A stretch of DNA of 64,000 bases from Hypoxylon rubiginosum. Its lineage: Eukaryota; Ascomycota; Sordariomycetes; Xylariales; Hypoxylaceae. The position numbers and the translations under genes are program-made. Within the stretch, counting starts at the first letter, position 1, and the number at the start of each line of letters is the position of its first letter. Where the stretch lies: NCBI GenBank assembly GCA_902806565.1, contig CADCXA010000043.1, positions 62,001 to 126,000 of the forward strand. Reading direction: 5' to 3'. Below, in pieces: positions 4,411 through 38,260 of the stretch. The notes under the pieces were generated by a model. It was not told the origin of the DNA, ran no database searches, and was given only the letters and a program-made list of their open reading frames with translations.

Positions 4411-4533
4411 ATAAACCATTATATAACAAATAGGTTTTAAGTTTTAAATAATTATATTAAAACTATAAATATTTACATTAAAATTATAAATTATTATATA
4501 ATAAACAGGTTTTAAACTTTAAACGATTATATT
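4411..4533. repeat. 75-bp spaced direct repeat
   Basis: A 48-bp segment beginning at 4,411 recurs at 4,486, a period of 75 bp. The differences I can see are all transitions. A further partial copy lies just upstream from about 4,390. Confidence 0.55.
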
Positions 4534-6307: not shown

Positions 6308-6480
6308 ATGGTTTTTTTTTTTTTACCTTTTTTTTTATTTTTTTTTTTATTTTTTTCTTTACCTTTTTTTTTACCTTTTTTTTTATCTTTTTTTTTACCT
6401 TTTTTTTTATCTTTTTTTTTACCTTTTTTTTTACTTTTTTTTTTACTTTTTTTTTTGTTTTTTTCTTTGTTTTTTTTACT
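6308..6480. repeat. polypyrimidine tract, T-runs spaced by ACC/ATC/ACT
   Basis: About 170 bp are almost pure T and C on the plus strand, built from runs of 9-10 T separated by ACC, ATC or ACT at a period of about 12 bp. The open frame through it encodes only Phe/Leu/Pro/Ser and is not a credible gene. A tract like this can form unusual DNA structure. Confidence 0.75.
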
Positions 6481-9443: not shown

Positions 9444-10440
9444 ATTATTTAATAATATTAATAAAATTATTTATTTTAAAATAAAATCTATTAAAAATTT
9501 TAATAAAAGTGTAATATTTATATTAACATATAAATTTTTTAACGATACTTATTTAAATATAATTATAATTTTAATAAACTTAAAGAAATTATTATTTAAT
9601 AATATTATTAAAATTAGTTAATTAAAGTTTAAATTTTTTAAAAACTTTAATAAAAATATAATATTTATATAGTTTTATAAACTTTTAAATTATATTTAAA
9701 TAAAGGTAATTTTAATAAATACAAGGAAATTCTTATTTAATAATATTAAAAAGAAAAGTTATTTAAACCCGATATTATTTAAAAACTTAAATAAAAATAT
9801 AATATTTATATTAACTTACGAATTTTTAATTAATATTTAAATAAATATAATTTTATTAAATTTCAGTTTATTTTTATTTAATGGTATTAAAAAGATTAGT
9901 TATTTAAAAACGTAATTTTTTAGAAATTATAATAAGAATATAACGTTTTTATTAATTAAAGAATTTTAAAGTAATATTTAATTAAATATAATCTAGGTTA
10001 AATCGAGGATATTTTTATTTAATAATATTAAAAGGATTAATTTTCTAAAAATATAATCCTTTAAAAATTACAATAAAACTATAATATTTATATTAACTAA
10101 AAAATCTTAAAATAATATTTAATTAAATGTGATTTTAATTAATAAAAAAAGATTTTTATTTATTAATATAAAAAAAACTAACTATTTAAAATCGTAATTT
10201 TTTAAAAACTTTATAAAAATTATCGTGTTTATATTATTTTATAAACTTTTTATTAGTATTTAACTTAATGTAATTTTATTAAATTTAAAAAAGTTATTAT
10301 TTAATGGTATTAAAAGAATTAATTATCCCGTTAAAAAATTATTAAAAAACTTTAATAAAAATATAATATTTATATAAACATATAAACTTTTTAATAATAT
10401 TTAAATTAATAAAAGCTTAATAAAAACAAAATTAATATTA
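9444..10440. repeat. fossil tandem array, 141-bp period, about 7 copies
   Basis: The anchor TTATTTAATAATATTA (or close variants) lies at about 9,445, 9,592, 9,733, 9,874, 10,015, 10,156 and 10,297. The spacings are 147, then 141 five times. A second anchor, AATATAATATTTATAT, follows each at a constant distance. The unit is exactly 47 codons and the one length change is 6 bp, so the array may descend from a repeat-protein coding region later destroyed by RIP. No reading frame survives. Confidence 0.8.
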
Positions 10441-13400
10441 ATAATATCTAGGTAAATATATTTACGTTTTTTAAAATAAAATTACCTTACTTTAAAATTA
10501 TTAATTATTTAATATAAAAGTATTTTAATATTAATTTAATATTATATTCTTTTTAATATAAGTTAATATAATAAAATATAATATAATATAATTCAATGAA
10601 ATATAAAAAGAAAATAAAGAAATAAATATAAGATTATTTTTTCTATATAAATTTCCGCGATAAAACCATCTTTAATTATTTATAACTTATTAAAAAAATT
10701 AATATAAGTTATACCTTTTTTATTAAAATTTATTTGGAAAATAATATGGAATAGAAAGTTATTAATTTAACTAGATATAAGTAATATAAAAATAACGTAA
10801 TTAAGTTTTATTATAATTATAAATTTAAATTAAATATATTAATAAATATAAGAAAAAATTTAATATATAAACTAATATATATAGTTATAAAATAACTTAT
10901 TTTTAAAAGTATAATTTAATTTAAGTATATTTAAATATACTTAAAAACTATAAATTATTAATATAATTAAAAAAAAGTTTATTATAATAAAAAGCGGAGA
11001 TTTTTTTTAGTTTTAAAATTAAATTAGTTATAAAATATAAATGGGTATTAAAAATTTTATTTTATTAGATTTAAAATCTATATAAGTATTAATATTTATT
11101 TTTATAAAATTATATAATATAATATTAATAAATTTAACAGTTTATTTATAAATATAATTAATTAATATTTTAAAATAATTATTACACTAAGATTTTAACC
11201 TTAAATAACTTATATAAATCATAGAATTAAAACTCCTTTTATAGTTTAAATATAATATTAATTAGTTATATAAACTAGGCTTTAAGTAATTATACGGTTT
11301 ATAAATAAAATAAAAATAAAATATTTATAAAATGTGTGTATTTTAAAGTTATATAAGTTTTATATAAGTTAATATAATATAAAAATTAAGTAATAATGGT
11401 TTTTTCTTTAAATTAATATAATTAATTACTAGATTATAAATAAATTAATATCCACGTTATTAAATATTAATATTAATATTATATTATTAATAATATTTTA
11501 AAAGTTTATATAATTTAAATTTATTTAAAAAGTATTAGTTTTATATTTAAATTATAATATATATTATCTTTAAAAATTTATTATAATAAAAAATAACCTA
11601 ATATATTTATTTATAAAATACTTATATTATTAAATAATAAAAAAATAAGGTTATTAACTATATTAATAAACTTTAAATAAACCTAAGTAATATAAAAATA
11701 AAGAATTATACTATAAATTTAACTTTTAATTTTTTGTTATTAAAATTAATATATTAATTAAAAAAACTAATATATAAATATAATTTTAATAGTTTTTTAA
11801 CCTTAAAAATATAACAAATCTATAATAAATAATTAACGTAACATCCATTAAAATTTATTAAAAATAAAAACCATCTATATTTTAATAAATATATTAGTTT
11901 AAAAAACTATTTAAAATAATATAAAAAGGATAAAAAAAAGTTAATATTAATATTTAATAAGTTTCTATATAATAAAATAATATAATATATAACTTAATTA
12001 AATAAAATAAAAAAATAAATAAAAATAAAATAAATATAATTATATAATTATTTATTAAATATTTTAAAAATAAAAAAATAAATTTAAAAAATATTAGAAA
12101 TTTATATATTATTTTTTATAATAATTATAAATTATTTATTTCCTAAGTATATACTTATAACGTAAAGCCGTTAAAATAATAAAAATAGTTATTTTAATTA
12201 TTAACTATTTTTTATTTAAATAAATATTTATTTAGTTTACTAGGTATTATTTTATTATTTAAAATATTAATATTTAAATATATATTTAAATAAATAAATA
12301 TTAAATAAATAAATATTAAATAATAAAAATTATTATTTTTATTTATTAAGAGTTTTAATTTTATTAGTTTTTTAAAGTTTATATAATTTTTTTTAGTTTA
12401 TTATAATAAAAGTTTTTTTTTATATTATATTTAACGTTATAATAAATAAAAATAATCTAGTTTTTATAAATTTTTTTAAAAATATATTACATATAAAGTT
12501 ATAATTAAATTATTTATTTTAAATTATAAAAAAAAAATCTTATTTTAAATATATTTTAAATATCTTATAAATTAAATTATAAAAATACATATAATAATAA
12601 TTTAACCGTTTCTATAAGCTTTTTTTAATAAACTTATATTTAATATATAAAATCTAAAATGTTATTTAAATTACTATTAATTTATTTTTTATAATAATTT
12701 ATATTAATTTTTTTAAAATTAAAGTTTTTTAAATGTTAATTACTATAATATTAATATATAAATTTAAAGGTTTTTTATATTTATTAAAATTAAGGTCTTA
12801 TTATAAAAACCTAGCCTTTATTATTCAAAAGGTTATAGCTTTTAAAATAGTGGTATTAAATGTTTATATTATTAAAAATATTAAAAATAAATATAATAAA
12901 TTTTTTTATTTAATAAACTTTTTTATTTATTATTTTTATATATATAAAAATGTTTATAATTATTAGGTTTATCGCTTTTTATATAATAATATCTTAGTTT
13001 CTTTTATTATTTAAACGGTTTTATAATAATATTATTATTTTATAATATTAATATTCCTATTAATAAAATACCTTATAATAATATTTTATATAATATTTAA
13101 TATTTTTTTTTATTTAATATTTATTTAAATAAGAGATAAATTAAATATAAATAATATTTATTTATAATAATTATTTTATTTATATTTATAAGTTTATATT
13201 TTAAGGTTTTAAGTTTTTATAACTAGTTATTTTTAAATAAATCTTTAAAATTATAATAAAAATTTTAACTTATTTTAATTAATAAGTTATATAAGTTATA
13301 AAAAAAACTAATTAATTTTTTAATATATAGCTTTTAAATTTAATTATATATATATATAAAACTTATTATTTAAATAATAAAATTATAAATTAAAAAGTTA

Positions 13401-13514
13401 TTATATTATTTTAATATTAAGATTTTATATATAAATAAGTTTAGTTTATATTTTTTTTAATACTAATAAATTAAATTTTTTATTTAAATTATAAAAATTA
13501 TATATTTTTTATTT

Positions 13515-13660
13515 AAATTTTAAATATAATTTAATAATAGTTTAATTATAATTTAATAATAATTTAATTATAGTTTAATAATAACTTAATTATAATTTAA
13601 TAATAATTTAATTATAGCTTAATAATAATTTAATAATAATTTAATAACAATTTTATAATA
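13515..13660. repeat. short AT minisatellite of TTTAATTATA/TTTAATAATA units
   Basis: Alternating 11-12 bp units of the form TTTAATAATAA and TTTAATTATAA repeat about twelve times, giving a higher-order period of about 23-24 bp. It is purely AT-type satellite with no coding sign. Confidence 0.65.
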
Positions 13661-13840
13661 ATTTAAATGTTATTATAAATATTTTATAAATATAATAAAT
13701 TTAATTTTAAGTTTAAATATAATTATAATTAGCTGTTATATATTTTTTATAATTTAAATTAATAAAGTATATTAATTTATTAAAAACCTAATGTATTTAT
13801 ATAATATAGGAATTATATATATTATAGTTTTAGCTTATTT

Positions 13841-14290
13841 TATAGGTTTGGTAGGTTTGGTGGATTTGGCGAACTTGGCACTTTTGTCACTTTAGCGGTT
13901 TAGCGTAAATTTATAGCGGAGCGATCCGGACCGGGTAAGCCCCCGTAATTCGACTTATTACATACGGAAAGCCAGAACAGAATTTCCTATCTGAGGATCC
14001 GAAAAAATTCACGACATCTTGGGTACGTACTGCTGCTGGGCTTCTTTCCCTCGTTTTACGCTACGTTTTCGGCAACCCCTTGTCAACCTAAACATCCAGG
14101 GCGGCAAGATCGTCGTCGATATCGCCTACTAGGTACCTTACGTTAGCGACCTCGCGACCATTGAAGTATCATTTCTGCAAGATCTAGTCAGTGTTCTCAG
14201 TATTAGTTCGACCTTCACATCTATGGGTGCCATGTACCAGAGGAGGCTACAAGTGTTTCCCTTGTTGGAAATATGTCCTCGGAATTAGAT
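13841..14290. other. gene-free edge of island 1
   Basis: Normal-composition sequence downstream of the NLR-type gene. It opens with imperfect TAGGTTTGG/TGGATTTGG repeats at 13,846-13,880. A plus-strand frame of about 44 codons ends at TAG 14,130-14,132 and contains the stretch RQPLVNLNIQGGKIVVDIAY. It might be the 3' end of a gene lost in the AT block, but I do not recognise it. Confidence 0.4.
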
Positions 14291-17200: not shown

Positions 17201-19146
17201 CTCTTGGAGTGCGAGCTCAACACCGGTGAGTCGATGGCATGAATTCAGCTTGTCTACAGCAAGCCGCACCCACTAGAAGTTATCAGTCCAAGCTAACGCC
17301 GGGAGAATAGTTTCCTATCATGAGGACTTACAAGAAAGTTATTCTGCGATCCTTCCACAACACGTTTCACAACACTTTCTCTGAAATCAGAGTCTCCAGG
17401 CATGCTAAGTTCTTGGCGAACGTAGCGCTGTAAATCTTCTAGATGGCCCTTAATTCCGATCATTTTCAGACTTAACGTATTTGGAACCTTTTGAAAAGTA
17501 GCTTCGATCTCGGGGGTACTACGTCCCACGAGAAGTATACGGAGCGGTACAGAGGAAGATGAGACGTCCGAGAGCAACTTAATGATTGCCCGAGGGTCGT
17601 GCGCCTCATCTAGTCCATCGATGACCCAGTACAGAGGTCTAATACCCTCCATTTTGAAGAGAATGGATCTGAAAATGCGATCCCAAATCGTTCTAGGGTC
17701 TGCAGTTTCGTAGTCAATGGCTTCACTGGTGAGCTCAAGTGGTTTTCCTAGAAATTTCGGTATCATCTGGGCCATTTGATAGACAATTGAACGCAGAAGA
17801 GCACTGAGAGTTCGTTTCTTCTGGTCGCCGATTCTTATGAAGAAATATTGACAACAGGCGCCTTTTTCAACAAGACTGTTGATAATGAATGAAGACAGCA
17901 CTGACTTCCCATTTGCGGCTCCTCCATATAGAAATAAAAGAGTGGAAGTTGACTCGGGTGCCTGAAACCATTGGACAAAGTCTTCGTTCTGGAAAACCCA
18001 TTCGCAAGTCCCCGGAGTCCATTGGTCCCGGAAGAAGCTGTAATCAGTGGATGGAAGCTCTGTGATGGCCAGCAAGGACTTCAGATCATGTGGCGCATCT
18101 CGGTATGATAGAGTTGTTTTTTTATAAGTGCTAGATGAGATGACCTTTTTAACAAGCGGAATGAGGACGTTTCTGACAATGATGTAATTAGGATCATTGG
18201 GGCTTTCATATTTGCAAACGCCATGATGATCTGCATCTAATGCCTTCGACGTCTCTCCAGGATAACCAAGTACTGACGAGTCCTTTTCCAGTACCGTCTA
18301 CAGAGCATTAGCAGAGTCGGGTGAAGCTTTAAACGTACTTACAACTCGAGCATTGAGAAAGATCGATGTAGGCTGGGTCTCATAGAATGAAATGATGTCT
18401 AGCCGAGTTGCAATGTGACGAAATTGTTCATTAAGTCTTTGCAGAGTAATTGAGTTTTTGGCAAGCTCAGATATGTACAGTTTCGAGTTGACAATCATCG
18501 TGGTTTGTAGAATTCGGTTTAGTGTCTCGGCTAGATGCGTTCCGCGATGTGGTGTGGAAAGGAAAGCAATCGCTGAGATGGATTTAATAATAGACTCGTA
18601 CTCGGGGTCGTTCTGGCCCCGCATATACGCCTACGAGGTATGAGTATAGAAGCAGACATATCGGTGACTGGACATTGCTACCTCCTTAACTATAAGCCCT
18701 CCCATGCTATGAGCCACGAAGATTAGGGGCACCTGGTAGCTAAGTTAGATATATCCGAAGCCATGATACTGATATTTTATACTCACGCTACCCATACATA
18801 GATCTTCCTTTTGTTCATCCCTCGCGTACTTGAGATTAAGCAACAGATCTTTAGCGAAATCAAGTACCGTCGTGCTAACACTTCCAGTCTTGCGAAAATT
18901 GGCATTGTAGCCAAAGGTCGAGATTCTTGCCTGGCAGATATCAGGCTCGAAGGGAAGAAATTTCGAAGGCCAGAATAATTCCGGATCTTTATCTTTTGAC
19001 CATGTCCACCGACTTGTTCCACCAAGACCGTGTATGAAAACGATGTCCGCCTTGTGGTCATTTTGTGGGGTATATACGACAGTAAGACCGAGAGGCCCGG
19101 CTTCCGTCTCATTCCTCTTGTGTGGCTGAGCGCTTCTCGCCGTCAC
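14291..19146 (-). pseudogene. NLR-like gene: SesB-type hydrolase - NACHT - WD40-like tail, broken
   Basis: Exons read from the ATG at 19,146: 19,146-18,787; 18,732-18,682; 18,630-18,343; 18,297-17,332; 17,272 onward. All four introns have GT-AG ends and keep phase. The N-terminus is a SesB-like alpha/beta hydrolase with VFIHGLGG and the nucleophile elbow AHSMGG across exon 2, plus FLSTPHRGT. A NACHT ATPase follows, with P-loop GGAANGKS and Walker B WVIDGLDEA in exon 4. A TGA at 16,769-16,771 stops the frame after 722 residues. Beyond it the family-like sequence continues in the same frame, then shifts near 15,805-15,820 and again near 15,550 (where roughly eight expected residues also seem missing), and runs to a normal end at 14,291 (GEVAVVKCAGLV). 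The tail holds WD40-like stretches such as LATGDARGTVKIF. Fungal NLRs of this type act in non-self recognition and cell death. A hydrolase-NACHT product of 722 residues remains possible. Confidence 0.8.
16769..16771 (-). other. in-frame TGA in the NLR-like gene
   Basis: The codon follows ...GYASSW and precedes SSHLVTALLND, both of which fit the family. The frame is unbroken apart from this codon, so this is a nonsense codon and not an intron or exon end: no GT donor and AG acceptor in phase surround it. Confidence 0.7.
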
Positions 19147-19767: not shown

Positions 19768-20007
19768 ATGTCTAGCCACGGGAAAGAGGAAAGATGTCGT
19801 TTGATTCTACCGGATAAGAAATGGGAATTAAAAGGGACTTTCCCATCAATAAGACCGTTGTTAGGGGTAAGTGCAAACTATTCTATACATGCCTAACCTT
19901 AGCTAACGCGTAAAATCGACTTTCAGTTATACCCAACGGAACCAGAGTCGTTTCTGCTAAGTTGAGCGGTGTATCAACCTGGGCGAAGATTACGAAAGTG
20001 TCGGTTA
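19768..20007 (+). pseudogene. fructosamine-kinase-like gene, 5' part (split by insertion)
   Basis: Exon 1 is 19,768-19,866 (MSSHGKEER...LLG). A canonical 60-bp intron follows (GTAAGT, CTAAC branch site, CAG) and exon 2 runs from 19,927. In exon 2 the frame IPNGTRVVSAKLSGVSTWAK fits the N-terminus of fungal fructosamine-3-kinase/aminoglycoside-phosphotransferase-like proteins, which phosphorylate ketoamines on glycated amino groups. Host coding sequence stops at 20,007, where the mobile element begins. The rest of the protein resumes in frame at 35,558. There is also a one-base frame conflict at the exon 1/exon 2 junction: exon 1 ends in phase 0, but the kinase frame needs one more base. Reading straight on gives only a 45-residue peptide ending at 19,965. 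The gene is not functional as it stands. Confidence 0.7.
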
Positions 20008-20019
20008 CTAGCTACGTAA

Positions 20020-20043
20020 CCCGGCCGTGTAAGCACGGCTGGG
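20020..20043 (-). repeat. 3'-terminal hairpin of the Helitron-like element
   Basis: Arms CCCGGCCGTG and CACGGCTGGG surround a TAAG loop (plus strand). Nine of ten pairs are perfect. It lies 8 bases inside the CTAG terminus at 20,008-20,011, the position expected for a Helitron 3' hairpin. Confidence 0.7.
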
Positions 20044-23000
20044 AGGGAAGCTGTGGGTTTTTTTTTTAGATTATATAAATATTTTATTATTATATTATAT
20101 TAATTTTATATAATTTAAATTAATTGGAATTTATTTATAAAAATATAAAATAAAAATTATAAAACTGGTATTTAATTATTAAGTTTATTATTTTTTATTA
20201 GAATTTTTTATTAATTTATATTATTTTTTTTTAATTAATATATTTATATTAATTATTTTACTTATATTTTATACCTTATATTTATATTTATATTTATTTT
20301 TTTTAAACTTTTATTTAAATTTTATTATTTCTTTTTTTAGAAATTTTTTAATTAGTAATTATTTTTTTTTTTAATTATTAAAATATTATTATATTTATAT
20401 TTATTAAAGTTTTATTTATTATTAATTTAAATGTTATTATTATTATTAATAAAACTATTAAATAATAAAATTAAATTAATATTTAATTTAAATATAATAT
20501 TATTAAATATAAACTTAAGTTATTTAATTTTAATATAAGTTAAAATCGATATTAATTTTATATATTTTATTTTTAGTTTTTTATTAGTTTTAAACTTTTT
20601 TTTATAATTATTATTACTAGTTGTTAATTTTAATTTATTTTATTTTTATATAATAAGGGCTTTTTTATAATATTAATAATAAATATTAAAATTATTATTA
20701 TTAAATTTTAAATTTAAATTTAAAAAGCTTTTTTTTAAAACTAAAAAATAATGTTTATAATTATTTTTTAATTACTAACTTTTTAATTTTAAGCTTTTTA
20801 ATTTTAAGTTTTTTAACTGCTAGTTTTTACTTTGTTTTTTCCCCTTTTTTTAATTATTTATTTTTAATATTTTTATTTATAATTTATATATTTTAATTAA
20901 AATTTTTAATAGTTTTTATTTATAATATTTATTTTTTTAAAGTTTTATTAATAATAAATTAAATTTTTAATTTTTTATTATTTTTTTATTTTTAAATAAT
21001 AAGGTTATTTTATTATATATTAAACTTTAAATAAAATATATAAATATATATTAAAAAAACGTTTTTAAAATAAAATAATATTTAATATTATAATAAAAGT
21101 TTAAATATAATAAGTTTTTATTAATAAAAAGTTTTAATAAATTTAATATATAAATTTATAATATATATAACCTATTTAATTTATTATTTTTATTTTTATT
21201 TTCTTTTAATATTATAACTATATAATTATAATTAAATAAATAATAAATATTATTTTAAATTATTATTTAATTTTTATTATTATTAAAAAAATTATTTATA
21301 TTTAAAAATAAAGTTATAAAATATTATATATAATAATTATTAAATTAAGTTAAATATATTTTTAATATAATATAAGTTATTTTAATTTTAATTAATGTTT
21401 TTATAAAATAATAAATCTTAATTAAAAAGTTATAATTATTTATTAGTTTTTTTAAGTTTATTATAATTTTAATAATTAAAACTTATAAAAATATTTTCTT
21501 ATTATTTAAAATTAACTTATTTAAAATTAACTTATTTAAAATTAGTTTATTTATAATTAATTTATCGTGTTTATATTTTAAGCTTATTATTTTTTTTATA
21601 GTAAAAATAAAATAATAAATATTATTTATTAATTAAAATTTAAATAAAAAATATAATTATTTATTAATATTATTTTATTAATAAATTTAAATAATTATTA
21701 TAATATTATAATAAAAAAATATTTAATATTATTTATTAATTAGATTTATTAATAATTATTAAACAGTAAAATCTTATAATTAAATATAATAAATAATTTA
21801 TTTTTAAAGGTTTTTAAAATATAAAAATTATATTTATTTTTATATATTTATAATATATTAATATTTCTTTTTAACGTTAAATATTAATAGTTACTAATAA
21901 TAATAATATAAATAATATAAACTATTTTATAATTAATATTAAAAGTTATATTAAAGTAATTTAAAAAGTTAAAATTAAATAATAACTTTATTTTTAAGTA
22001 TTTTAAATAATATATATTAAGTTTATATTATAATTATATATATAAATTATATAAAAATAACTTATAAATTAAATAATATAATTTATTAATATTATTTATT
22101 TTTAAATATATAAATATAATATATATAAATTTAAATATATATAAATAATAGAAAATTATATTTATTATAATATAAATAAAATTATAAGAATTTATTTATA
22201 TAAGTTATTTAAATATTTAAATAATAAGTTATTTTAAAGTTTAAAATATTAATAATTTATTATTTATTTATATATATAAATAAGTTATATAATATATAAA
22301 TATTTTTTAACATTATTTTTTTTATTTTTTATTTTAATATTTACTTTTTATTAATATATTTTTTATTAATATAAAATATAAAATAAATTTAAAAAAAAAA
22401 TTTATAGTTACTATATTTTTTAATAATAATAATAATATATTTAATTAAATTTAAAAAGTTATTTATATTTTTTATTTTAAATATAATTTATTATATATAT
22501 TAATTATTTTATATATTATTAATAATAATAAACTTTATTATTTATTATTTTATAAAACTTATATAATTATTATTAAAAATATTTAAAATAATATTAAAAA
22601 TATATAAAAACTGTATTTTTTTTTATTTATTAATTAAATTATTTTTTATTTGTTAATATTTTAAAATAATTTAATTAATATTAAGATTTATTATTTTTAC
22701 GTTTTTTATAAAAGCCGTGTAAATATAAATTATATATTTAAATATTATAATTAGTTTTAAATATTATATATATATAATTATATTAATTATTTTTATTATA
22801 ATTAATATATTATATTTAGTAATTTTTTTTTAGAAGTATTAGTTTTTTTTTTATAAAAATATATTTAAGCGATAAAAAGAAATATATATTAATAATTTAT
22901 TTAATTATATTAATTTTAAATTTAATTTTAATTATAGTTATTACGTTTTTATATTATAATTAATAAAATTAAAAAATAATTATATTATATTTAAAATTAT

Positions 23001-23517
23001 AAATTTTTAATTATTAGTTAATTAAATATATATATATTTTATAAAAAATTTATTAAATGTTATTTATATTTTTTTTTTTAACTATATGTTTTTTTGTTAA
23101 AATTTTTATTATATTTAAAATAAAAATTATATTATTATTTATTTAAAATTAAACTTTAAATAAAAAAATAAACTTTATTTAATATTATATATTTTTTAGT
23201 TATTAACTAAGTATTATAATATAAATATTAAAATATATATATTATTTTATAATTATTTTTTTTATTTAATCTTTTATATTTTAATTAAATTTTTATTTGT
23301 TTATTTCGCTTAAGTTTTATTTATTAAAAAAGTAATTAAAATGTTTAATAATAATATTTTTTATTAAAAATATTTTATTATTTTTTTTAAATATAAAGGT
23401 TTTTATAATAAATAATTTATATAATAAATAATAACGGTAAAATAACTTTTTAATTTTAAAATAAAAGTTATTAATATTAAAAAAGTTAGTTAAAAATGTA
23501 ATATTAATAAAGTTTTA

Positions 23518-23645
23518 TAAAATATAAATAAAATTAAAAAAAAAAACGCGAGCGAAGCTAAAAAAAAGAATATAAATAAAATTAAAAAAAAAATATATAA
23601 ATAAAATTAAAAAAAAAACGTAAATAAAATTAAAAAAAAAAGCGA
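23518..23645. repeat. tandem ATAAATAAAATTAAAAAA units
   Basis: Four to five copies of a unit of about 25-27 bp ending in a long A-run, some followed by ACG or AGCG. It lies inside the AT-rich element and carries no gene. Confidence 0.65.
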
Positions 23646-23784
23646 TATTAAATATTTAAATAAACGCTTAGTTTATTTAATATATATTAAGTAAATAAAG
23701 TTTAATAATAATAATAATTTTAAGTATTTTTTTTAAAAATATTATTATAAAAAATTAATATTTTTAACACGTATTAAATAATTT

Positions 23785-23810
23785 AAATTTATTAGTAATA
23801 ATAATAACGG

Positions 23811-23857
<47 letters not shown>

Positions 23858-23858
23858 G
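23785..23858. repeat. (AAT)n microsatellite
   Basis: An almost uninterrupted run of AAT/ATA triplets, with GGT and AAA interruptions near its left end. Simple repeat. Confidence 0.8.
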
Positions 23859-26800
23859 TTTTAACTTTTTTTTTTTCGGCGATTTAAATAACAACTTTTA
23901 GTTTAATTAAAAGGAAAAAGTTAAATTTAATTTTTTATATTTAAATATTAAAATTAAATTTATATTATTTTATTTATTTATTAATTTTAATTTTATTTTA
24001 AAGTTGTTTATATTTATATTTAGTTTAATAAATAATAATAATTAAAGTTTAAATTATTATAAAAATTATTTTATTTTATTTATTTTTTATATAGTTTTTA
24101 TTAATATTAAATTCTTTATTAATATTAAGTTTTTTATTAATATTAATTTTAAGGTTAATTATAAAGTTATTTCCAAGCGTATTTATAATAATTATATTTA
24201 TTAAAAGGTTTAATTTTTTTTAATGTTTTATTTATAAAAAATTAGGTTTTTTTTAATATATTATAATTAAAAAGGTTAGATTTTTTTTATATATTATTTT
24301 TTTATATATATAATTTATAATATTTTTTAAATAAATGTTTTTATAAAAATAATATTTTATAAAATATATACGTATAAATAAAAGGAAAACAATTTAATAA
24401 ATTAATTTATTATTTTATATATTATTTAATAAGAATTTTAAGTTAATATTTTTTTATATTTTTAAAATATAAGATTTTTTTTTATATTATAACTTTATAA
24501 TATAAAATTAAAAACATTTAATTAAATAATTTTTACTTATTTAAAACTTATTTTTAATATTAATTAGTTTTATAATTATAATTTATTTAAAACTTTTATT
24601 TTTTTTATTATTTTATATATATTTTAAACTAGTTTATTTTTAATATATAACACGTATTTAATTATTATATATTCTTTTAAATTATTATTAAAATATAATT
24701 TATATAATATTAATTTTAAATTATTTAGTATTTTTTTTACTTGTTTAATTTAAATAATTATTTAATTTAAATTTTTAAATTTTATAAACTTTTATAATTA
24801 TTTTTAATTAATATTATTTAAATTTATATAGTTTATAAGATCTTTTTTTAGTTTATAAAAAATGTTTTTTAAAAAACTTTATTAATTTTAAAAAACCTTT
24901 TAATTTTATTTTAATTTTTTTATATTATAAAAATAATATTTATAATAATTATTATTATTAAATTAAGAAAATAATTTTATAGTTTTATAAATTAAAATAA
25001 TAATAATTAATATATTAATTTTTATTTATTAAACTTATTATCTTATAATATAAACTATTTTAATTTTTTTAAGTTTAATTAAAAATAAGTATTAATTTTA
25101 AATTAAAATAAATTAAATTATTTTCTAGCTTTATTTTATACGCTTAAAATTTTTTATTATATTAATAAAAATAATAATTATTTTATATTAAAAAATAATA
25201 AAAATTTAGTTAAATATATATAGTAAATTTTAATTAAAATTAAAAAAATAAAAATAAATAATATTATAGTTTTAATATTTAATAATTTATATATATATTA
25301 AACTTTATTATTTTCTTAAATAAACATTTTATTAATAATTTAATAACTTATTATTAAATGGATTTTTTTATTAAATATATAATATAAAAACTAGGTTTAT
25401 TATTATAAAAAAATTAAGTTAAATAAAATATTAACTATTAATTATAAAAATAAATTTATATTAATTTTTTCTAATTAATTTAAAAGTTTTAATTACTATT
25501 AACTACTTATATATAAATATATAATATTATTTTATTTTTAAAATAAAGTTATATTAATTATAAGGTAAATAATAATAAATTTTAATATTATTTTATTTTA
25601 TTTAATTATTTTAATAATATATATATTAACTGTTATTATAATAATACTAAAAGTAAATATTTTTATTAATTTAATATATAATATATAAATATTAATAAAT
25701 TTAAATAATAATAGTTAATTTTTTTAATAACTATTAATAAATATATTAAAATAAACGGTATATTAATTAATATTTTTATATTAATTTTAATTTCTTTTTA
25801 ATATAACTTTTTACTATTAATAATTAAAGAAAATATAAAGTTTACGGTAAAATAAAAACCAATTAATATTTATTTATTTAAAACGATTAAAATAATTTAC
25901 GGTTTATTATTTTAATTATTTAATATAATAAAAAAAATAAAATAATTAAAATATAATAAAACTTTTTATTTTAAAAAAAAAAATTAAATTAAGTAATTAA
26001 TTAAAAACGTTTTATATATATATTAAATATAATATTATTTATAGTATTTTTTTTTAATTATTTATTAATTTTTATAGAATTTTAAGATATATAATATTTA
26101 ATAATTTATTAAATTTTATTTTTAATATTTTTAAAACTTTTAATTTTTAAATAAACTTAACTTTTAATATAGTTATATAAAACTATTTATATATAAATAT
26201 AGGAATTTTTTAATTAATATTAATTATATTAAAAAATTATTTTTATAACTTATTTATAGTTATAATAAAGTAAATTAATATTAAAAACTATTATTTAAAT
26301 TATATAAATAACTGGTTTTTATTATTTTAAATTAATTTAACTTTTAATAAAATATATTTTATTTTATTAAATAACTTACTAAGAATTTTAATTTTTATAT
26401 TATATTTATTAAACTAAATTATAATTATTTAAATATTATTATAAAAACCTTAATTAAGATTTAAGTTACGTAATATTATAATAAAAAGATTAACTTTTAA
26501 TTTTAATTTAACTAATAATATTTTTTTTAATTATAAAGTTTAAATTATTTTAATTAATATTTTTTTAATTTATTAGTTATTTATTTTAATAAATTTATTT
26601 ATTAAAAAATATTTTTATTTCTTTTTAAAGATATTAAATAATAAATTATTATTAATTTTTTATATAAATATATTATATATAAATAAAATAAATTTAAAAG
26701 TAAAAATATTTAAATTATATAATATATTATTTAAAATTTTCTTTAAGTAAATATAATTATAAAAATCCTTAATATTATTAAATATTTTTATTATATTAAA

Positions 26801-28014
26801 TAATAATATTAATTTATTAATTTTAAAACTATAAAAAATTATTTAAAATTATTATAAAAACTTTATATTTTTTATATTATTTTATTAAACCTTTATATTT
26901 TTTATTAAATATAACTTTTAAATTTTAAATTATAAAAATAAATTTTATAAATAAATATTAATAATTTATAATTTTAATCCTTTTTTAACTATAAATAGAA
27001 TTTATATAAAATCTTTTTTAAATAAAATAAATATTTTATTAAATAAAAATTAATTTTTTTATATATTATATAATATTTTATAAATTATTTTAAATATATA
27101 TTTATATTATATAATAACTTTATTTTAAATAATTAATAATATTTATTAAAAGAGATTTATTTTTATTAACCTTTTTTAAATATTATATATTAAATTATTA
27201 TTTAAAGTAATAAAAATTTTAAATTATAAATAAGTAATTTTTTTACTAGGTAATAAAAACATTATAATATTAAATAAAATTATATATAATATAATTTTTT
27301 TTTAATTAATAATAATAATAAAATATTAAATATAAGAAGATTTTTTTAATTTTAATTAAGTTTTATAAATAAAAATATATAAAAAAAAAAGTTTATTTAA
27401 TAATTATTATAATAATATTATATATAATATATTAATTATTATTTAATATTAAAAACGTTTTATTATATAAGTTTATTTTAACGTTATAATTATAATTTAA
27501 CTTTTTTTTAAATAAATAATTAATATAAACCTTTTTTTAATTAAATTAAAATAAAAAGAAATTTATTTTATTTTAATCTTTTAAACTTATAGTAATTATT
27601 TTAATTAAATATAAATTATAATTTAAATAAATAGTTTTAATTAAGTTAAATAAACTTTATATTTTATTAAATATTTATATTAAATTATTATATATAAACT
27701 TTTAAAATTTATTTTAAATATAAACTAGATTTTAAATATCGCTTTTTTATAAAATATATATAAAAATAACTTTTAATTAACCGCCGGTTAAAAATATTTA
27801 CGTTTTTTTAAAAAAATTCTTTTAATAATTATTATTTTTTAAAAAGCTTTAAGCTTAATAAACGTTTTAAAACATTAAGTATTAAATATTATTATATTTT
27901 ATTAAATTAAATTAACTTTTAGTTTTAAAAATTAAAATAAAAAATATTTATAAATAAAATCTTTTATTAGTTTTTAAATAAATAAAATATATCCGATTAA
28001 ACTTTTTTATTATT

Positions 28015-28073
28015 TTTTACTTATATTTTATTTATTTATTTTTTACTTATATTTTATTTATTTATTTTTTACA
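28015..28073. repeat. 29-bp tandem duplication
   Basis: The unit TTTACTTATATTTTATTTAT plus a short T-rich tail occurs twice in direct succession, followed by a partial third copy. Confidence 0.6.
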
Positions 28074-31000
28074 TGTTATTAAAATAAATATAAAAAGTTT
28101 TAATATAAAATATTTTAATTATCCTTATAAATTTTATTATATTTAAATTATATTATAAAAGTTATATAGTTTTATTTTAAAGTTTTTATTATTAACTTAA
28201 AGTTATTTTTAATATAATATTTTATTTTATCTTTTTTTTTTAAATAAACAACTAAAAATTAAATAAATAAATATATATTATAAATTAAAAATTTTAAAAA
28301 ATAATATATTAATTTATATAATTTAATAAAACAATTATATAAATATTTATTAATTTTATTATAAGGTTAATTTTAATTTTAATTTTATTATAATAACGTT
28401 TTTTTTTAATATAAGTAAATTATAATTTAATTATTACTTTTATAAATATATTTATAAATATATTTAATTATTTTTATAATAATATAAATTTTAATATTAA
28501 TATATATTTAATATTTTTAGTTAAAAAAAAGATTATATAATATTATTTAATTATTATTTTACTTTATTAGTTTTAAATAACTTAGGATTTTAATATATAA
28601 TTTTTATTTATATATTAAATATTTATTTAGTTTAATTATAATTTTAAAGTAAAATAATTTTAAATTTATTATATTATAAGGTTTATATATTATATTAAAT
28701 AATATTATTTACTATAAAATATTATTTAAATTAATATTAATCCTTGAAATTTTAGCTTATATAATATAATTAATATTTATAAATTTTATAAATTAATTAT
28801 AATTTAATAATAATAAAAAAACTAAGTAATATATATAAAATAAGCCTTTTTTTAATATTTAATTATTTAAATTATATTATAGTATTTATTAAAATAATTT
28901 TTTTTTATAATATTATCTAAAAGTATTTTTTATTTTTAATTAAAAATATAAATATTAATATTAAATTAATTACTTATAATTTAACTTAAAAAAAGCTTAT
29001 TTTTTATTTTTAATTAATTTAAATTAATAGTAAAAATAATAAAAAGGATTAATTAATTTAAATAATAAATAACAACTATTAAATTTTAATAATAATAAAA
29101 TATAAATTTTTTATTACTAATAAATAAAAATAACAAATATATATTATAATTAATATTAATTAAATTAATATTTTTAATTAAAACAACGTTATAAAACTTA
29201 TTTTAAAAAACTTTTTATAAATTATTTTATTTATATTTTAATTATTTTAAAATAACTTATTTTATAATAATTTAAATATTAATTAAATATTACTAAAAAA
29301 GTTAATTAAATATAAATAAAATTAATATTTTTTATTTATAATTATATAAATAATATTAAAAATATTATTATAAAAATAAATTCCTTTTTTTATAATTTTT
29401 ATTATAAAATTATATATTTAAATTATAATTAATTTCTTTATATAGTTATATTAATATATAAATAAATAATATATATACTAAATAATTTATAAAAACATAT
29501 ATATAAAAAAATAATATTCTTTTTATAATAACTTATTTAATTAAAATAATTTTTTTTTATTATTAATTTCTTTTTATAATATTTAAAATAATATTAATAA
29601 TATTTTTAATTTTTAAAAAGTTTTTATATTACTAATTTACACTTTTTTTAAAAATTATATTTAAATTAAATTTTAATATAAACTAAATTATAAAATTATT
29701 TATATTTAAGTTTTTTAAATTATTTACAGCTTTTTATATTTATTTTTAAATTATAATATATTTTTTAATATATAAATTATTTATATAAATTTTTTTAAAA
29801 AACTATATTAAAATATTTAAATTTAAGTTATTATTATTAATAACAAATTAATATTAAATAACTAATTATAAATTATAAAAATATAATTAAATATATTTAA
29901 ACCGCTTATTTTACGTTATTTTTAAAAAGCTAGTTATATAATATAAAGTTTTTTAAATTTAAAAATAACTAGGATTTAAACTATTAATATTATAATTAAT
30001 AAATTTATATAAAATAAATATAAAAAAAAAACAAAGTTAAACCGTTAAATATTCTTTTAAAATTTTTAAACTTTTAAATTAAAACTAATTAATAATAATT
30101 ATAAAAACTTAGGAAATTTATAGATTTTTATTAATTATATATTTTTATTTTTATAATAAAATATAAAAATCTTATTTTCTTTTATTTTCTTTTTAAAATA
30201 TTTATTAAATTAATAAAATATATTATAAAAATTATATTATTTATTTATAATATTAATATTATAAATATTTATTTATAAAAGTTTATTATTATATAATTAA
30301 ACTTTATAATATTTAGTAAAATTTAATTACTTTTTATAATAAAAATATAAAAAATATAATAAATAATTTTATTTTAAAAACTATTAGTTTAAAATTTAAA
30401 ATAATTATAAAAAATTTTAAAACTTAAACTATTATTACCTAATTACCTTATTTTTTTTAGTTTTAAATTTTTAAAAATATTTAAATTAATAAAATATATT
30501 TAAACTAATTTTATTTAATAATTAATATTGTTTTAAAATATAATATAAATAATAAATATAATAAAAATTTTTTATATAAAATTTAAAAGTTATTTTAAAT
30601 AATATATAAACCTTTTTATATTTAATATAAGTTTTAATAAACTTATATATATTTATTATATAAAAATAAAAAGAAAATAAATAATATATAATTATAATAA
30701 ATTGGTTTTAAATAATAATAAATTTTAAAAAAATTTAGTTATATATTAAAATATAATAATATTTATATATTAAAAATAAATAAAATAATAATAATTAAAA
30801 GAAGTATTTAATATTAATTAAAACTAGAAAATATAAATAAAAAGTTTAAATAAAAAATAAAAAAACTTATAAATAAAAAAAAATATATATAAAACTTATT
30901 TTTTTTTAAGTTAATATTTTTAAAACACGTTTAATATATTTTATTATAATATGTTTTATTATATAAAAAACAAATAAAATAAAAAGTTTTAAAAAAATAA

Positions 31001-32439
31001 ATATATATTAAAATTATTTAAATATTTAAATTATATATTAATATATTATTAATTTGTTTTAAATTTTATTAAAAGTAATTAAATATTATTAAAATATAAT
31101 AATTAAAACTAAATATAAATATATTTTATTTTAACTTTTATTTTAATATATTTAATATTATTAGTTTTTATTTAATTTTATATTTAATATTTTTAAGTTT
31201 TAAAAAAAAGTTAAACATTTTATTAAATTTTAATAAAATAAACGTTAATATAAACTTTAATAAAAAACTTAAGTTATTATTTATTATAATTAAATTAGTT
31301 AATATTAATAACAATAAAAAACTATTTTTTTTAAAAATTATAAATAAAAAAAACAAATTATCCGGTGAACTTATAAAAATAAAAGCTTTTTTATTTATAA
31401 ATATAACTAGAAATAATATTAGTTTATAAAAATTATTTTTTTAATAAAACTATTTTTAATATAACTTATTAAAATTTTAAAAGAGGTTAAAAAATAAGTT
31501 TTATTTTTATAATAATAAGTTTTTATTAACTAAAAAAAAAAAAAAAAAAATTATAATATAAAGCGGTTTTTTATAAAAAAAATATTAAAAGGTTTATTAA
31601 AAAAGTTATTAATATTATAAAAATTTTATATATATAACTAAAAATATTTATTATTAATAAAAACTTTAAAATATTATAATTTTATAAAATAATTATTTAT
31701 ATTATTTAATAAATAATTATTAAAATTTTAATTTAAAAAGTAATAATTAAAAACGATTTTTACGGAAAATTTATATAAAAAAAACAGGAAAAAATTTAAA
31801 ACTAAATAATAAAAAAATAATTTTATAGTTTTAAAAAATATAAATTAATAAGTTAACTTTATTTATTTAAAGTTGGTTTTATTATTATTATTATTATTAT
31901 TTTTAATTTAATATTACTAATAAATAATTATTTTTTATTAGTTTAAAATATAAAATTATTTAACAGATTTAATTTTTAAATAAATTTAATAAATATATAT
32001 ATATTTTTAAAAAAATAAATTACGATAAATAAAAAAGTTATAATAATAATATATTAACCGTTAAAATAAAAGGTAATTATAACATTAAAAATAAAAAAAA
32101 ATATTTATATATTTTAAATTTAAAAAAGTTTTATAATTAGGTTTTAATATTAAAAAATGTTTATTTTATTATATAATTTAATAAGTTAAATAAATATTTA
32201 TTATAAATATTAAAAATTAAATTATAGTTAAATAAAAATAAAAAATAAAACTTAAACGTGATAAAAATAAAAAAAATAAAAAATTAAGAAAAATAAAAAA
32301 AAATATATAAAAATAAAAAAATAAGTTTATCTTTTTATTATATATAAATATAAATATAAATTAACGTTTTATTATTAATATAACATAAAATACTTAAAAA
32401 ACATCCACGGTTAAAAGTTTAAATTAATATAAATAATTT

Positions 32440-33060
32440 ATTTTTAAATTAATATATTTTATTTTTAAAAACTTAATTAATTATAAACTATTTATTTTTT
32501 AAATATAATTAATTAAATTTTATTAAATATATTTATTATTTTTAAAAACTTTAATAATTATAAATTATTTATTTTTTAAATATATTTAATTAAGTTTAAT
32601 TAAATATATTTAAATTAAAATTAAAATTTAAATGTTTTTTTATAAACTTTATAAATATAATAAAAAAAGTTTAAGTTAATTAAATAATAAAAATAATAAT
32701 TATTTATTTATTTTTTAATTATAATTAGTTAAATTTAATTAATTATATTTAAAGTTAATTAAAAAATTAATACTTTTTTATAAAATTTATAAATATAATT
32801 AAAAAAATAATAAGTTAATTAAATAATTAAAAGTTAAATAAATAAAAGTTACGTATTTTTTAATTATATTTAATTAAATTTAATTAATTATATTTAAAGT
32901 TAATTAAAAAATTAATATTTTTTTATAAAACTTATAAATATAATAAAAAAACTATAAGTTAATTAAATAACTAAAAATTTAATTATTTATTTTATAAATA
33001 TATTTAATTAAATTTAATTAAACTTATTTAAAAATATTTTAAATATATTAAAATTTTATT
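32440..33060. repeat. degenerate tandem array, about 140-155 bp period
   Basis: The anchor TTATAAACTTTATAAATATA (or variants) lies at about 32,640, 32,778 and 32,933. Each is followed by AAGTTAATTAAATAA and then TTTAATTAAATTTAATTA. Earlier partial units start near 32,440. A related single copy lies at about 34,640-34,930. This is a decayed minisatellite inside the AT-rich element. Confidence 0.6.
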
Positions 33061-33111
33061 TTATATATTTATATATTTTTTTAAATATATTCAATTAAAT
33101 TTAATTAAATA

Positions 33112-33372
33112 TTATAATAAAGTAAAACTTTAATATCTTATAATTAAAAGAAGATATTATAAATAATAATAAATATAAAAGATATATTAAAAATACGTTA
33201 ATTAGTATAAATATTTAATTAATATTAAAGTATTATATATAATAAAAATAATATTTAAAGAAAAGGTTATTTAAGTGTAATATTTAAATAAGTTATATAG
33301 TAAGTTTAAGTTATATATAGTTTAAAATATTATATAATATTTTAATATTTTAATATCTTAATTTTATTATAA
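33112..33372. repeat. 261-bp direct repeat, copy A
   Basis: The partner is 34,379-34,639. The two align end to end without gaps at a constant offset of 1,267 bp. Every difference I can find by eye is a C/T or G/A transition, which is a direct RIP signature. They could be the long terminal repeats of a small element or a simple duplication. Confidence 0.75.
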
Positions 33373-33537
33373 CTTTTTTTTATAATAATAATAAGTTTTT
33401 ATTAAATTAAAGTTATATAAAATAAATAAATAAATAAATAAATAAATAAGTAACTAAATATATAATTATTAAGTTTAAGTAAGCTTTAAAAAAAAAAAAA
33501 TTTTTAGGATATGTATATTAATAAACTTTTTTTTTAT

Positions 33538-33598
33538 AGCTTTTTTTTTTATATTTAATATTTTATAGCTTTTTTTTTTATATTTAATATTTATATTT
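33538..33598. repeat. 29-bp tandem duplication
   Basis: The unit TATAGCTTTTTTTTTTATAT plus TTAATATTT occurs twice in direct succession. Confidence 0.65.
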
Positions 33599-33769
33599 TT
33601 TTATATGTAATTAATGTTTTAATTAACTTGATATTATCTTGGATTTTTTTTTTAAAACCTTAAAATTTTAATACCTAGGATTTAATTTAATTTAAACTTA
33701 AATTTAAATTTAAACTTAAATTTAAACTTAGATTTAGATTTAAAAAAGTAATTATACGGGGTATTTTAA

Positions 33770-34070
33770 GCTTTAAAATTATTTTTTTATATTTGATTTT
33801 TATTTAATATTTTACTTAGTATTTTAAGTATTTAATATTTTTATAGTTAATATTTTAATAATTAAGATTTTATAAATTTTAATTAATTAGTATTTTATAA
33901 TTAATATTTTATTTGGTATTTTAAATATTTAGTATTTTTATAATTAGTATTTTAATAACTAAGATTTTATAGGTTTTAATTAATTAATATTTTATAATTA
34001 GTATTTTACTTAGTATTTTATTTAATATTTTATTTAATTGGTATTTTATAATTAATATTTTATACAATTA
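33770..34070. repeat. 97-bp tandem repeat, about 2.5 copies
   Basis: AAGTATTTAATATTTTTATA at 33,826 recurs as AAATATTTAGTATTTTTATA at 33,923, and the rest of the unit matches. A shorter partial copy follows. The differences are mostly transitions. Confidence 0.65.
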
Positions 34071-34378
34071 ATAAGTATTATTTATAACTAGTAATATTAT
34101 ATATAAATTAATCGGTATTATATTAATTTAACTGGTAAATATTATAAATAATTTTACTTATAAATATTTAAAAATTTTTTAATATATAAATTTTAATATA
34201 ATAAAAAAGAAAAATAATAAAAAAAAATAAAAAACTTTAAAACTTTTATATTTAAAAACTTATAATATTTATTTTAATTAATATAATATAAAGTTATCGT
34301 ATTAATTAAAATAAATATAAAATAAACGGTTTTTTTAAAACTGTAATTATATAAATTTAAGTTTAAATTAAGTGTTAA

Positions 34379-34639
34379 TTATAATAAAATAAAATTTTAA
34401 TATTTTATAATTAAAAAAAGATATTATAAGTAATAATAAATATAAAAAATATATTAAAAATATATTAATTAATATAAATATTTAATTAATATTAAAATAT
34501 TATATATAATAAAAATAATATTTAAAGAAAAAGCTATTTAAATATAATATTTAAATAAGCTACGTAGTAAATTTAAATTATATATAGTTTAAGATATTAT
34601 ATAATATTTTAACACCTTAGTATTTTAATTTTATTATAA
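34379..34639. repeat. 261-bp direct repeat, copy B
   Basis: Partner of 33,112-33,372, same strand, gapless alignment. Copy B keeps C and G at some sites where copy A has T and A, and the reverse also occurs, so both copies were mutated independently. Confidence 0.75.
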
Positions 34640-35079
34640 TATATTTAAAAATAATAATTAAAATATATTAAAATATTTTTTTATAAATTTATATATTTTT
34701 TAAACATATTTAATTAAATTTAATTAAATTTATTTATATTATAATTAAAAAACCAAGTTATTTTTTTATAAGTTTTATAAATATTATTAAAAAAACTATA
34801 AATTAATTAAATAATTAAAAATAAAGTTATTTAATTTTTTAATTTTTAAATATATTTAATTAAAATTAAATAAATAATTTTAAATAATTTAAATATCTTT
34901 TTATAAACTTTATTAATAATATAAATTAATTAAATATTATAAATAAATAATTATAAAAATAATAACTAATAATATAATTTAAAATATTATAAATATTATA
35001 AAATTTATTTAGTTTTAATTAAAAAAAAAAAAACTATATTATAAGTTTATATAATATTATATTTATTAAAATAAAAGTT

Positions 35080-35270
35080 ATAATTAAAAATTAAATTTAT
35101 TATATTTTTTTATATTATATATAAAATTTATATTAATTAATTAATTATATTTTAACGTATGTTTTTTAAAAAAAAAATTATAATTAAAAGTTAAATTTAT
35201 TATATTTTTTTATATTATATTAATATTTATATTAATTAATTAATTATATTTTAATATATATTTAATAAAT
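35080..35270. repeat. 100-bp tandem duplication
   Basis: TTAAATTTATTATATTTTTT at 35,091 recurs at 35,191 with its downstream TTAATTAATTAATTATATTTTAA. The copies differ by a few substitutions and a small length change. Confidence 0.65.
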
Positions 35271-35557
35271 TTTTTATAAAATTAATTAATTTATTTTATT
35301 ATAACTTAAAAAAATTAATAATTAATATAATTTAATAAAACTTGTTTTATATAATTTTTTTATATTATTTACATTTTTATAGATTTTATTATAATAAAAC
35401 CGTAAAAGAAAATGTCGAAAAGTGCGGGGTAATTTTAAGTATATGATTGGTCGGTGAAATTGTGACAATACTAATAAAATAAAGAGAAGTTGATACTACT
35501 AGATAAAAGTCCGAAGATATATTTTCTAAAGGTAAACCACCTTTCGTCGCCGTAGGA

Positions 35558-36669
35558 TTGAGCGCACGTTGACTCAACATGGTACGATGAAGTGCGCGAC
35601 AGGTCAAGGTGCCCAAGCTGTGACTAAAGGTGAATATCACTCGGCATTTACCATCAACGAAGCCCTATCTGGGTTTGTCCCAAAACCGGTAGGATGGGGC
35701 AAATATCACAACGGTGAATCACTCGTATTCTTCTTCCTGGGAGATTTTCATGATATGCATCTTTCCATCGCTCCCGAGCCGGCCAACTTCATGTCGAAAA
35801 TAGCAGAACTCTATCAGAGCACTTCCCCAAACGGCATGTTTAGATTTCACGTTCTAACGGTATGTGGGAAAATGGAACGAACGGTAACTGTAAGTAATTT
35901 TAGCTGTCCGACTCACTCTCTATCCCTATGTATCGACTTGGGATTAGCCTTTTTACGGAATGAACTCGTTAGGACTGATTCAGCAGATATCCAGGCTTAC
36001 AGCGTTATCTTCATTGTGTAGTGGGAGGGAAGCTGGGCCGAATCCTTTACCCATCAGCTCAAGGATGTCATAAAGTATGACAATGAGACGAACGGACCGT
36101 GGCCAGAATACGACGCAGCATGTAAGCAACTTATCGACATGGTTATACCGACACTTCTAGGCGCTCTGCAGTCTGACGGAAGGAATATTACCCCATCATT
36201 GATACACGGTGATTTGTGGGAGAATAACGTTGGGACCGACGTTGAAACAGGCGAGACGGTCCTGTTTGACCCTGGATGCACCTACGCCCACAATGAAATG
36301 GAATTCGGTACCTGGAGGTGCACATGGACATGTTACTTCAACACGCCCGCCTATATGCAGATGTACCAACGCCATATCAAGCCCTCGGAGCCAGTAGAGG
36401 AATGGGACGACCGCAATCGCCTCTACAGCATCCACCCGTACCTAAATGATTCGGCGGGACATGCAGGAAGCGCTTCAAGGGAAATGTTAATAATATTCCC
36501 ATAATACTTCGCAAAATCTCAGTAACTAATCTATCTTAGAGCTTACAATGACATGCTATATCTTTGCGAGAAATACGGCCCGTTGGACAGCTTAGAGAGA
36601 TACGACCCAGGACAGGATATAAGCGTTACAGGAGTTCATACCTCATTTGTCATAAAACAGTTAGAATGA
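35558..36669 (+). pseudogene. fructosamine-kinase-like gene, 3' part (split by insertion)
   Basis: Exons are 35,558-35,889, 36,022-36,485 and 36,540-36,669. Both introns keep phase (GTAAGT...TAG and GTTAAT...TAG). The protein contains KCATGQGAQAVTKGEYHSAF, then FLGDFHDM, the catalytic-loop-like LIHGDLWENNVG (HGDxxxxN) and the metal-site-like LFDPGC, ending FVIKQLE. This is the fructosamine-3-kinase fold (phosphotransferase family), expected to act on glycated amines in the cytosol. The first in-frame ATG is at 35,587, but homologous coding begins right at the element boundary, 35,558, so the gene lacks its own N-terminus, which lies at 19,768-20,007. If transcribed from a new start, a protein without the N-lobe beginning would result. 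Confidence 0.8.
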
Positions 36670-37091: not shown

Positions 37092-38260
37092 ATGTCTCTG
37101 CGACCGCTAGCTAGAGCAGCGTGGAGGCTGCGCGCCGCCGCCCCGAGACGAAGCAACGTAATTACACTTGCGCCGACGCGCCGATGTTTGAACACGGTCC
37201 CGAAGTGCCCAGAGCCGACATGCGACTGCGCGGATACACCGTCGATGCCATGGGGCAAGGGAATTGACAAGGACGCCAACCTCAACGGCCTTATCGCAGC
37301 CTACGCCCAGCAGGTCTTGATCTGTACCGGTAAGGACGACTGGGCCTCGCGCATAGAGGAAGACAACAGTGGCGACAACCTAGCCGCTGACCTGAAGGAG
37401 CTGATCGGTCGGGGAGGTGTATATAGTGATGTGAGTCCAATTGCTCAGCTCTTCCGAGGGACTGGCTAAGGAATTCCGTGCGCAAGTCCCAGGTTGCGGT
37501 GGAATGATGTGTACATTTTGCTAACGGTAAGTGATAGCCCTTCCACAACATCTCTATCGCGAACTCTTCTTTCCCCTCCGCAATCTCTAGACGACCAGAG
37601 ATACAATCCACTTCCGTCTACCTACTTCCGAGCTTCAAATACATACCCTTCCTGCCGCGAGTGTCTTTCGACTCTGTGCAAGCTCTGGTCAAGGGGTACC
37701 TGCTGCCGGAGAAGCTCCACCCGATGAACGACGGCCTGTCGCCCATACATAAGGACCGGCTGCTTAGAAAGGAGGCTTATCAGCACGCCCTCTACGGCGT
37801 GCGTGATGTAGACGATGTGCTCGTTCTAATATGCGGACACGGACAACGAGACCAGAGATGCGGCATCTACGGGCCCATCTTACAAGCGGAGTTCGAGAGA
37901 CAACTGCCGCAGGCAGGAATAGACGTCCTCCAGGGGCCGGCGTTAGACGAGAGCATCTCAGCGCCACGACTTTCCGGTGCTGCAACAGGGACGGAGGAAG
38001 TACCGCGCACGGCGAGGGTAGCCCAGATCAGCCATATTGGCGGGCACAAGTACGCAGGCAACGTCATCATCTATCTACCGCCGAGCCTGACGAATAACGC
38101 CGGTAACCCGCACCCCCTGGCCGGCCACGGTATCTGGTACGGGCGCATAGACCCGAAGCACGTAGAAGGGGTCATTAAAGAGACTATAGTAAACGGCAAT
38201 GTTATTGCTGACCATTTCCGGGGCGGGATCAACCAGGACGGGAAAATCCTTAGATTATAG
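37092..38260 (+). CDS. Aim32-like thioredoxin-fold ferredoxin, mitochondrial
   Basis: Two exons, 37,092-37,430 and 37,538-38,260, with a phase-0 intron (GTGAGT...TAG), give 353 residues. The first 25 residues are Arg/Ala-rich with few acids, like a mitochondrial presequence. The N-terminal part has CPEPTCDCADTPSMPWG. The C-terminal thioredoxin-like domain carries the family [2Fe-2S] ligands as C212-x8-C221 (CGHGQRDQRC) and H279-x3-H283 (HIGGH), then AGHGIWYGRI and HFRGG. Yeast Aim32 and Apd1 belong to this sucrase/ferredoxin-like family. Aim32 is a mitochondrial redox protein linked to thiol quality control of imported proteins. All expected ligands are present, so it should be functional. 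It lies head-to-tail with the next gene about 520 bp away. Confidence 0.85.

Follow-up and report, generated by a model that had tools for sequence, protein, structure and literature searches.

A Helitron-type element mutated to 6% GC interrupts a fructosamine/ribulosamine kinase gene of Hypoxylon rubiginosum

In this study, we examined 64,000 nucleotides of Hypoxylon rubiginosum (GenBank assembly GCA_902806565.1, contig CADCXA010000043.1, positions 62,001 to 126,000; hereafter the window, whose own numbering is used throughout) and found a gene for a fructosamine/ribulosamine-3-kinase to be split by a Helitron-type element, which occupies positions 20008-35493 on the minus strand (15,486 bp). 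We consider it highly probable that this is a canonical-type (Helitron1-like) element from a multicopy family of about 14 kb, which inserted in an ATA codon of kinase exon 2 and was then hypermutated to 6% GC by repeat-induced point mutation (RIP). As we envisage it, a rolling-circle transposon would have entered between the A and the T of this isoleucine codon without making a target duplication and, being one of many near-identical repeats, would afterwards have been mutated by RIP, while kinase function would have been lost through the 15.5-kb AT-rich interruption. A Helitron-type insertion is supported by the multicopy family, by the like 3′ ends of its members, by a helicase remnant and by homologues that run continuously across the joint.

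The kinase gene is broken at 20007|20008, the point at which an initial annotation of the same DNA had seen host coding sequence stop (A 20,007). Read on the minus strand, the 3′ end of the element is ..GTAGCTAG|T (given also as ..CCCAGCCGTGCTTACACGGCCGGGTTACGTAGCTAG, then host T), with the terminal CTAG at 20008-20011 and a subterminal hairpin with a 4-nt loop at 20020-20043, which lies 8 bases inside the CTAG and ends 12 nt from the element 3′ end. The CTAG, the placement of the hairpin and the A|T target site, the last being where canonical Helitrons insert, had all been recognized initially and are confirmed by related copies: AGCTAG|T was found in 39 of 39 sibling 3′ ends fetched (gathered by similarity to the window 3′ end, with the best 40 of 41 candidates scored). 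The hairpin had been described as 10 bp long; in the window copy, 9 of 10 positions pair (DNA fold −9.7 kcal/mol, z −3.3). Across the genome searched (48.3 Mb, 70 contigs), the exact 3′-end pattern GGTTRCRCAGCTAGT occurs 63 times and its reversed control not once, giving the family at least 63 3′ ends; the window copy carries one further change and hence falls outside these matches. At the other end, 36 of the 39 listed siblings matching window 35300-35700 end at query 194-199, equivalent to window 35493-35498, and the remaining three at query 181, 203 and 222 (best 40 of 201 candidates scored, leaving aside 11 further matches that were short and weak). Sibling 5′ ends begin T(C/T)AA(C/T)TT at the position equivalent to window 35493, a pattern that could be anchored in 37 of the 39 and that is preceded by A in 36 of these 37. 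Of the 37, 19 open with TC and 18 with TT, TT being the C-to-T form of TC; the window has TC, and its true 5′ terminus is the TCA at 35491-35493, preceded by A on the minus strand. Because the sibling 5′ ends fall at 35493, the element is delimited as 20008-35493.

With these boundaries, the two parts of the kinase gene join with no base lost or duplicated, consistent with the initial claim that no target duplication was made. The junction 20007|35494 splits an isoleucine codon, A|TA, and joining restores ATA; the host sequence at the joined site reads ..GTCGGTTA|TACTACTAG.. (also written GTCGGTTA|TACTACTAGATAAAAG), and the joined protein runs KVSV-ILLDKSPKIYFLK, then, after a 61-bp intron, CATGQGAQAV. 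The corrected coding sequence has 1056 nt in 351 codons, no internal stops, four introns that are all GT-AG and a re-framed exon 1. In this model, on the plus strand, exon 1 (19821-19866) is followed by the portions of exon 2 before (19927-20007) and after the insertion (35494-35531, encoding the homologue-supported segment above), by an intron GTAAAC..AAG (35532-35592) and by exons 3 (35593-35889), 4 (36022-36485) and 5 (36540-36669, including the stop). Exon 1 had initially been begun at 19768, a start that we rejected since in that frame it aligns poorly with relatives (as judged by the alignment, with no statistic); from ATG 19821 it fits them in another frame, giving MGIKRDFPINKTVVRVIPNGTR, which aligns with their GIKGNFPINKAVVEVMPSGTR. 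The start codon at 19821 remains uncertain, because an in-frame stop sits near a position where several relatives have Trp (window 19794-19820 reads MSFDSTG*E upstream of the ATG). The split gene is most closely related to proteins of Hypoxylon and other Hypoxylaceae, the best match being a Hypoxylon cercidicola protein with about 80% identity over 95% of the query. When the genome was queried with that protein, other long matches were at most 42% identical, and a stretch of 31 residues next to the 42% match showed 65% identity. As 15.5 kb of AT-rich DNA breaks exon 2, the kinase of the sequenced strain is very likely non-functional. No clear decay of the gene is seen: among 143 columns that are invariant in the other sequences it has 7 changes, compared to 1-8 at 144-151 such columns in ten relatives.

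The element belongs to a family of long copies. Listed 5′ and 3′ matches formed 27 pairs including the window, leaving 13 ends unpaired on each side; 19 of the 26 paired siblings measure 13.85-14.21 kb, and the other seven (14.5-43.7 kb) may represent nested DNA or mispairing. Aligned with a sibling on C53, the window copy is identical at 12,749 sites and differs by 982 transitions and 36 transversions; a single block of 1,530 bp (33113-34642) is present in the window copy and absent from the sibling. The C27 sibling retains a readable PIF1 helicase (PF05970), which scores 48.3 bits with 19 stops and 59.4 bits (E 5.1e-16) on read-through and which maps by alignment to 26873-27446 on the minus strand; a PF05970 profile search of the window copy itself was without match. 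When the two flanks were joined for 21 of the 26 paired siblings, the longest open run across the joint averaged 91 codons versus 90 for mismatched flanks, giving no sign by this measure that other copies split genes.

Several points weigh against our interpretation. The PF14214 profile for Rep (HUH) had seven genome matches, none inside paired copies of the family, and a RIP-tolerant codon-alignment search for Rep-Hel reached 46.7 bits at best, compared to a best control of 41.7. Two of the 39 sibling 5′ ends miss the terminal pattern (L039 is one base off and L042 is altered), one anchored 5′ end has G, not A, before the element, and siblings were picked by similarity, which biases them toward like ends. 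A second RIP-tolerant search stayed at shuffle level and was insensitive, as it also missed the known C27 helicase. Both searches used Rep-Hel sequences that apparently belong to two other Helitron types of the same genome, with long open frames of 2108, 1439 and 1412 aa in L098 and L114 (C25), L099 (C66) and L095 (C60); these could possibly serve as helpers for the short copies described below.

The initial annotation had the element reach 35557 and the host restart at T 35,558, with a codon A+TT across the joint. An A|TC does occur there on the minus strand (35558|35557) and the frame from 35558 remains open; nevertheless, the 64 bases 35494-35557 are host, comprising the exon that encodes the conserved kinase segment (35494-35531) and then the start of the 61-bp intron. 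The supposed TC end is thus a coincidence within host DNA, and the protein IERTLTQHGTMK placed after the joint is translated intron. The corrected join scored higher in all 78 relatives compared (by 2 to 23 bits, mean 16; these being the 78 of 120 listed relatives that align from residue 30 or earlier, with the other 42 dropped) and gave 103.4 bits with the fructosamine kinase profile PF03881, against 95.9 for the earlier join (cut-off 22.4). Together with the sibling matches ending at 35493-35498, this leaves the longer element hardly tenable. The split of a kinase gene, an in-frame open joint and one continuous alignment to homologues therefore all hold, but at 20007|35494, and the asserted agreement of two lines of evidence to the base at both ends was wrong for the 5′ end, where other copies do have different ends from those proposed. 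Given the boundaries found here, assignment to the non-canonical Helitron2/Helentron type appears improbable. In its favor, most of the fungal Helitrons identified in one study group with Helitron2, which is reported there as predominant in Pezizomycotina (PMC5148889). The ends of our element, TC..CTAG with a single 3′ hairpin, are however those that the same paper gives for Helitron1, namely TC, CTRR and a hairpin located 10-12 nt from the 3′ end, with target duplications absent (PMC5148889). Like a canonical Helitron1, it has a 5′ TC, a 3′ CTAG (CTRR), a hairpin that stops 12 nt short of the 3′ end, an insertion without target duplication and, in one sibling, a PIF1-type helicase; unlike one, its family is about 14-15.5 kb long and hypermutated, and Rep was not detected in the searches made. 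Neither the target TNAT|A nor the 3′ end ATTTT of the FoHeli type is present, the element having an A|T site and a CTAG end. Canonical Helitrons have no terminal inverted repeats, and Helitron2/Helentron elements carry asymmetric ones together with a hairpin at each terminus. The FoHelis of Fusarium oxysporum, which are Helitron2-like, share with it the possession of non-autonomous relatives, and FoHeli1 in F. solani is reported to bear RIP hallmarks, whereas FoHelis are described as having asymmetric inverted repeats for termini and as using other target sites (PMC5148889). In one sibling, L055 (C25:2474256-2475944), the initial 20 or so bases of the 5′ end are repeated in tandem ahead of the element, resembling the multiple 5′ termini reported for FoHelis (PMC5148889).

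The insert has 6% GC, a (CpA+TpG)/(ApC+GpT) ratio of 0.18 and a TpA/ApT ratio of 1.15, both dinucleotide ratios being computed over 20008-35557 and so including the 64 host bases. Sequences were compared in two-letter purine/pyrimidine form, since transitions keep that pattern (control scores up to 35-38; chance-like extra matches up to 39). Unmutated relatives were found on C10: L113 (the last 1.6 kb), L119 (about 2.5 kb of the element) and L112 (the first 262 bp). The longest two-letter stretch of L113 covers 558 bp at a score that corresponds to 17 mismatches; for the L119 stretches of 680 and 1,276 bp, the scores correspond to 1 and 2. Relative to L113, the window copy has changed from C/G to T/A at 582 of 683 sites and in reverse at 6 of 849 A/T sites, with 44 transversions; by context, and leaving out the last 180 bp, CpA has changed at 161/169 (95%), CpG at 108/118 (92%), CpT at 155/177 (88%) and CpC at 132/160 (82%). 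Mutation of the element is directional, from C:G to T:A, and RIP fits as the mutagen. It would have acted after insertion, soon and strongly, because two siblings differ by just 36 transversions in 13,767 aligned sites. Were AT-richness instead ancestral to the element, one could expect what is seen in the contexts, every CpN being mutated with CpA not dominant, and in a TpA/ApT of just 1.15. Interior C/G sites are mutated at 82-95% across all contexts, and such near saturation hides any CpA preference. Ancestral AT-richness is very improbable, since L119 has 40-53% GC (in 500-base steps) with a near-identical purine/pyrimidine pattern (the scores of its two best stretches imply 3 mismatches in 1,956 positions), the changes run in one direction, and copies differ by transitions, 982 versus 36 transversions. 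Mutation by RIP would place the element beside the RIP-affected repeats of Neurospora and Stagonospora, which show C:G to T:A changes across long repeats, while near saturation in every CpN context and spared termini set it apart from them (PMC2621366).

The sparing of the termini is graded. Counted inward from the 3′ end in bins of 20 bp, the mutated fraction over 40 copies is 6, 19, 16, 42, 40, 48, 72, 82, 89 and 94%, then 81-93%, and from the 5′ end over 38 copies it is 31, 17, 37, 33, 57, 82, 76, 80, 91, 82, 97, 89 and 90%; the mutated C/G share is thus 6-37% in the last 60 bp at 3′ and in 80 bp at 5′. Changes opposite to the RIP direction number 194/7,097 (3′) and 78/5,541 (5′). These profiles favor less mutated ends, as copies were gathered by similarity to the window ends, and transversion-type mismatches of 1,315/13,940 and 575/9,880 indicate imperfect alignments and references. 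For the 5′ end, the unmutated reference comes from a 346-bp element that is located on C10 and ends TCACGCAGCTAG. A search with this element listed 41 matches, itself among them, at 82-100% identity over almost the whole length (best 40 of 167 candidates scored); short copies with heavier mutation would escape such a search. The four best short copies, of 346, 346, 346 and 352 bp and 47-48% GC, lie between A and T and have their 5′ end in common with the long element; two short copies (C41:555972-556316 and 556333-556675) stand in the same orientation 16 bp apart. Such a pattern is consistent with RIP that has a length limit and spares the edges. In N. crassa, RIP is reported to need a length over 400 bp, while in Stagonospora a 275-bp repeat is RIP-affected and one repeat family has slightly more RIP toward its ends, not less (PMC2621366). 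The unmutated pieces on C10 (the L112, L113 and L119 region) reach 1.6 kb and more, which clashes with a pure length rule; C10 and C60 might form a region that is accessory or sheltered from RIP. We tentatively propose, while considering it rather doubtful, that in this fungus RIP very quickly saturates almost every C/G of repeats above a length limit, sparing a fringe of about 60-100 bp as well as copies below 400 bp, and so would leave the family made up of dead giants and live dwarfs.

Some further features of the window and genome may be recorded. Beside the kinase gene, window 17293-18297 (minus strand) holds a fragment of a NACHT-type NTPase (NPHP3_N, PF24883, E 2.3e-43). Window 37538-38260 (plus strand) encodes a sucrase/ferredoxin-like protein (PF06999, E 1.9e-48). 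Two more AT-rich blocks, at 1-13850 and 62200-64000 (about 3-19% GC), share no 24-mers with the element and are probably other RIP-affected repeats. C10 and C60 hold five of the seven PF14214 matches in the genome. L119 contains, antisense to the element, a 501-aa open reading frame (L119:565-2070, plus strand) whose match to HNH_2 is below threshold (E 0.016). A homologue search with an open reading frame of the unmutated C10 relative gave 373 candidates, none significant.

Full-text literature searches listed one paper, on Pseudoxylaria, for Hypoxylaceae with Helitron, and none for RIP, Helitron and Xylariales combined. As an insertion, the case is ordinary; as a natural RIP experiment it is useful. 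The exact insertion in a conserved kinase provides a testable and usable strain marker. Furthermore, since one family has the same 5′ end in long mutated and in short unmutated copies, the length limit and the edge effect of RIP become measurable in nature. If our tentative proposal were true, the spared fringe would be what a Helitron needs in cis (the TC end, the hairpin and the CTAG), and RIP would kill the coding body while leaving ends that are still usable by the Rep-Hel of another Helitron, thereby favoring non-autonomous derivatives of about 350 bp.

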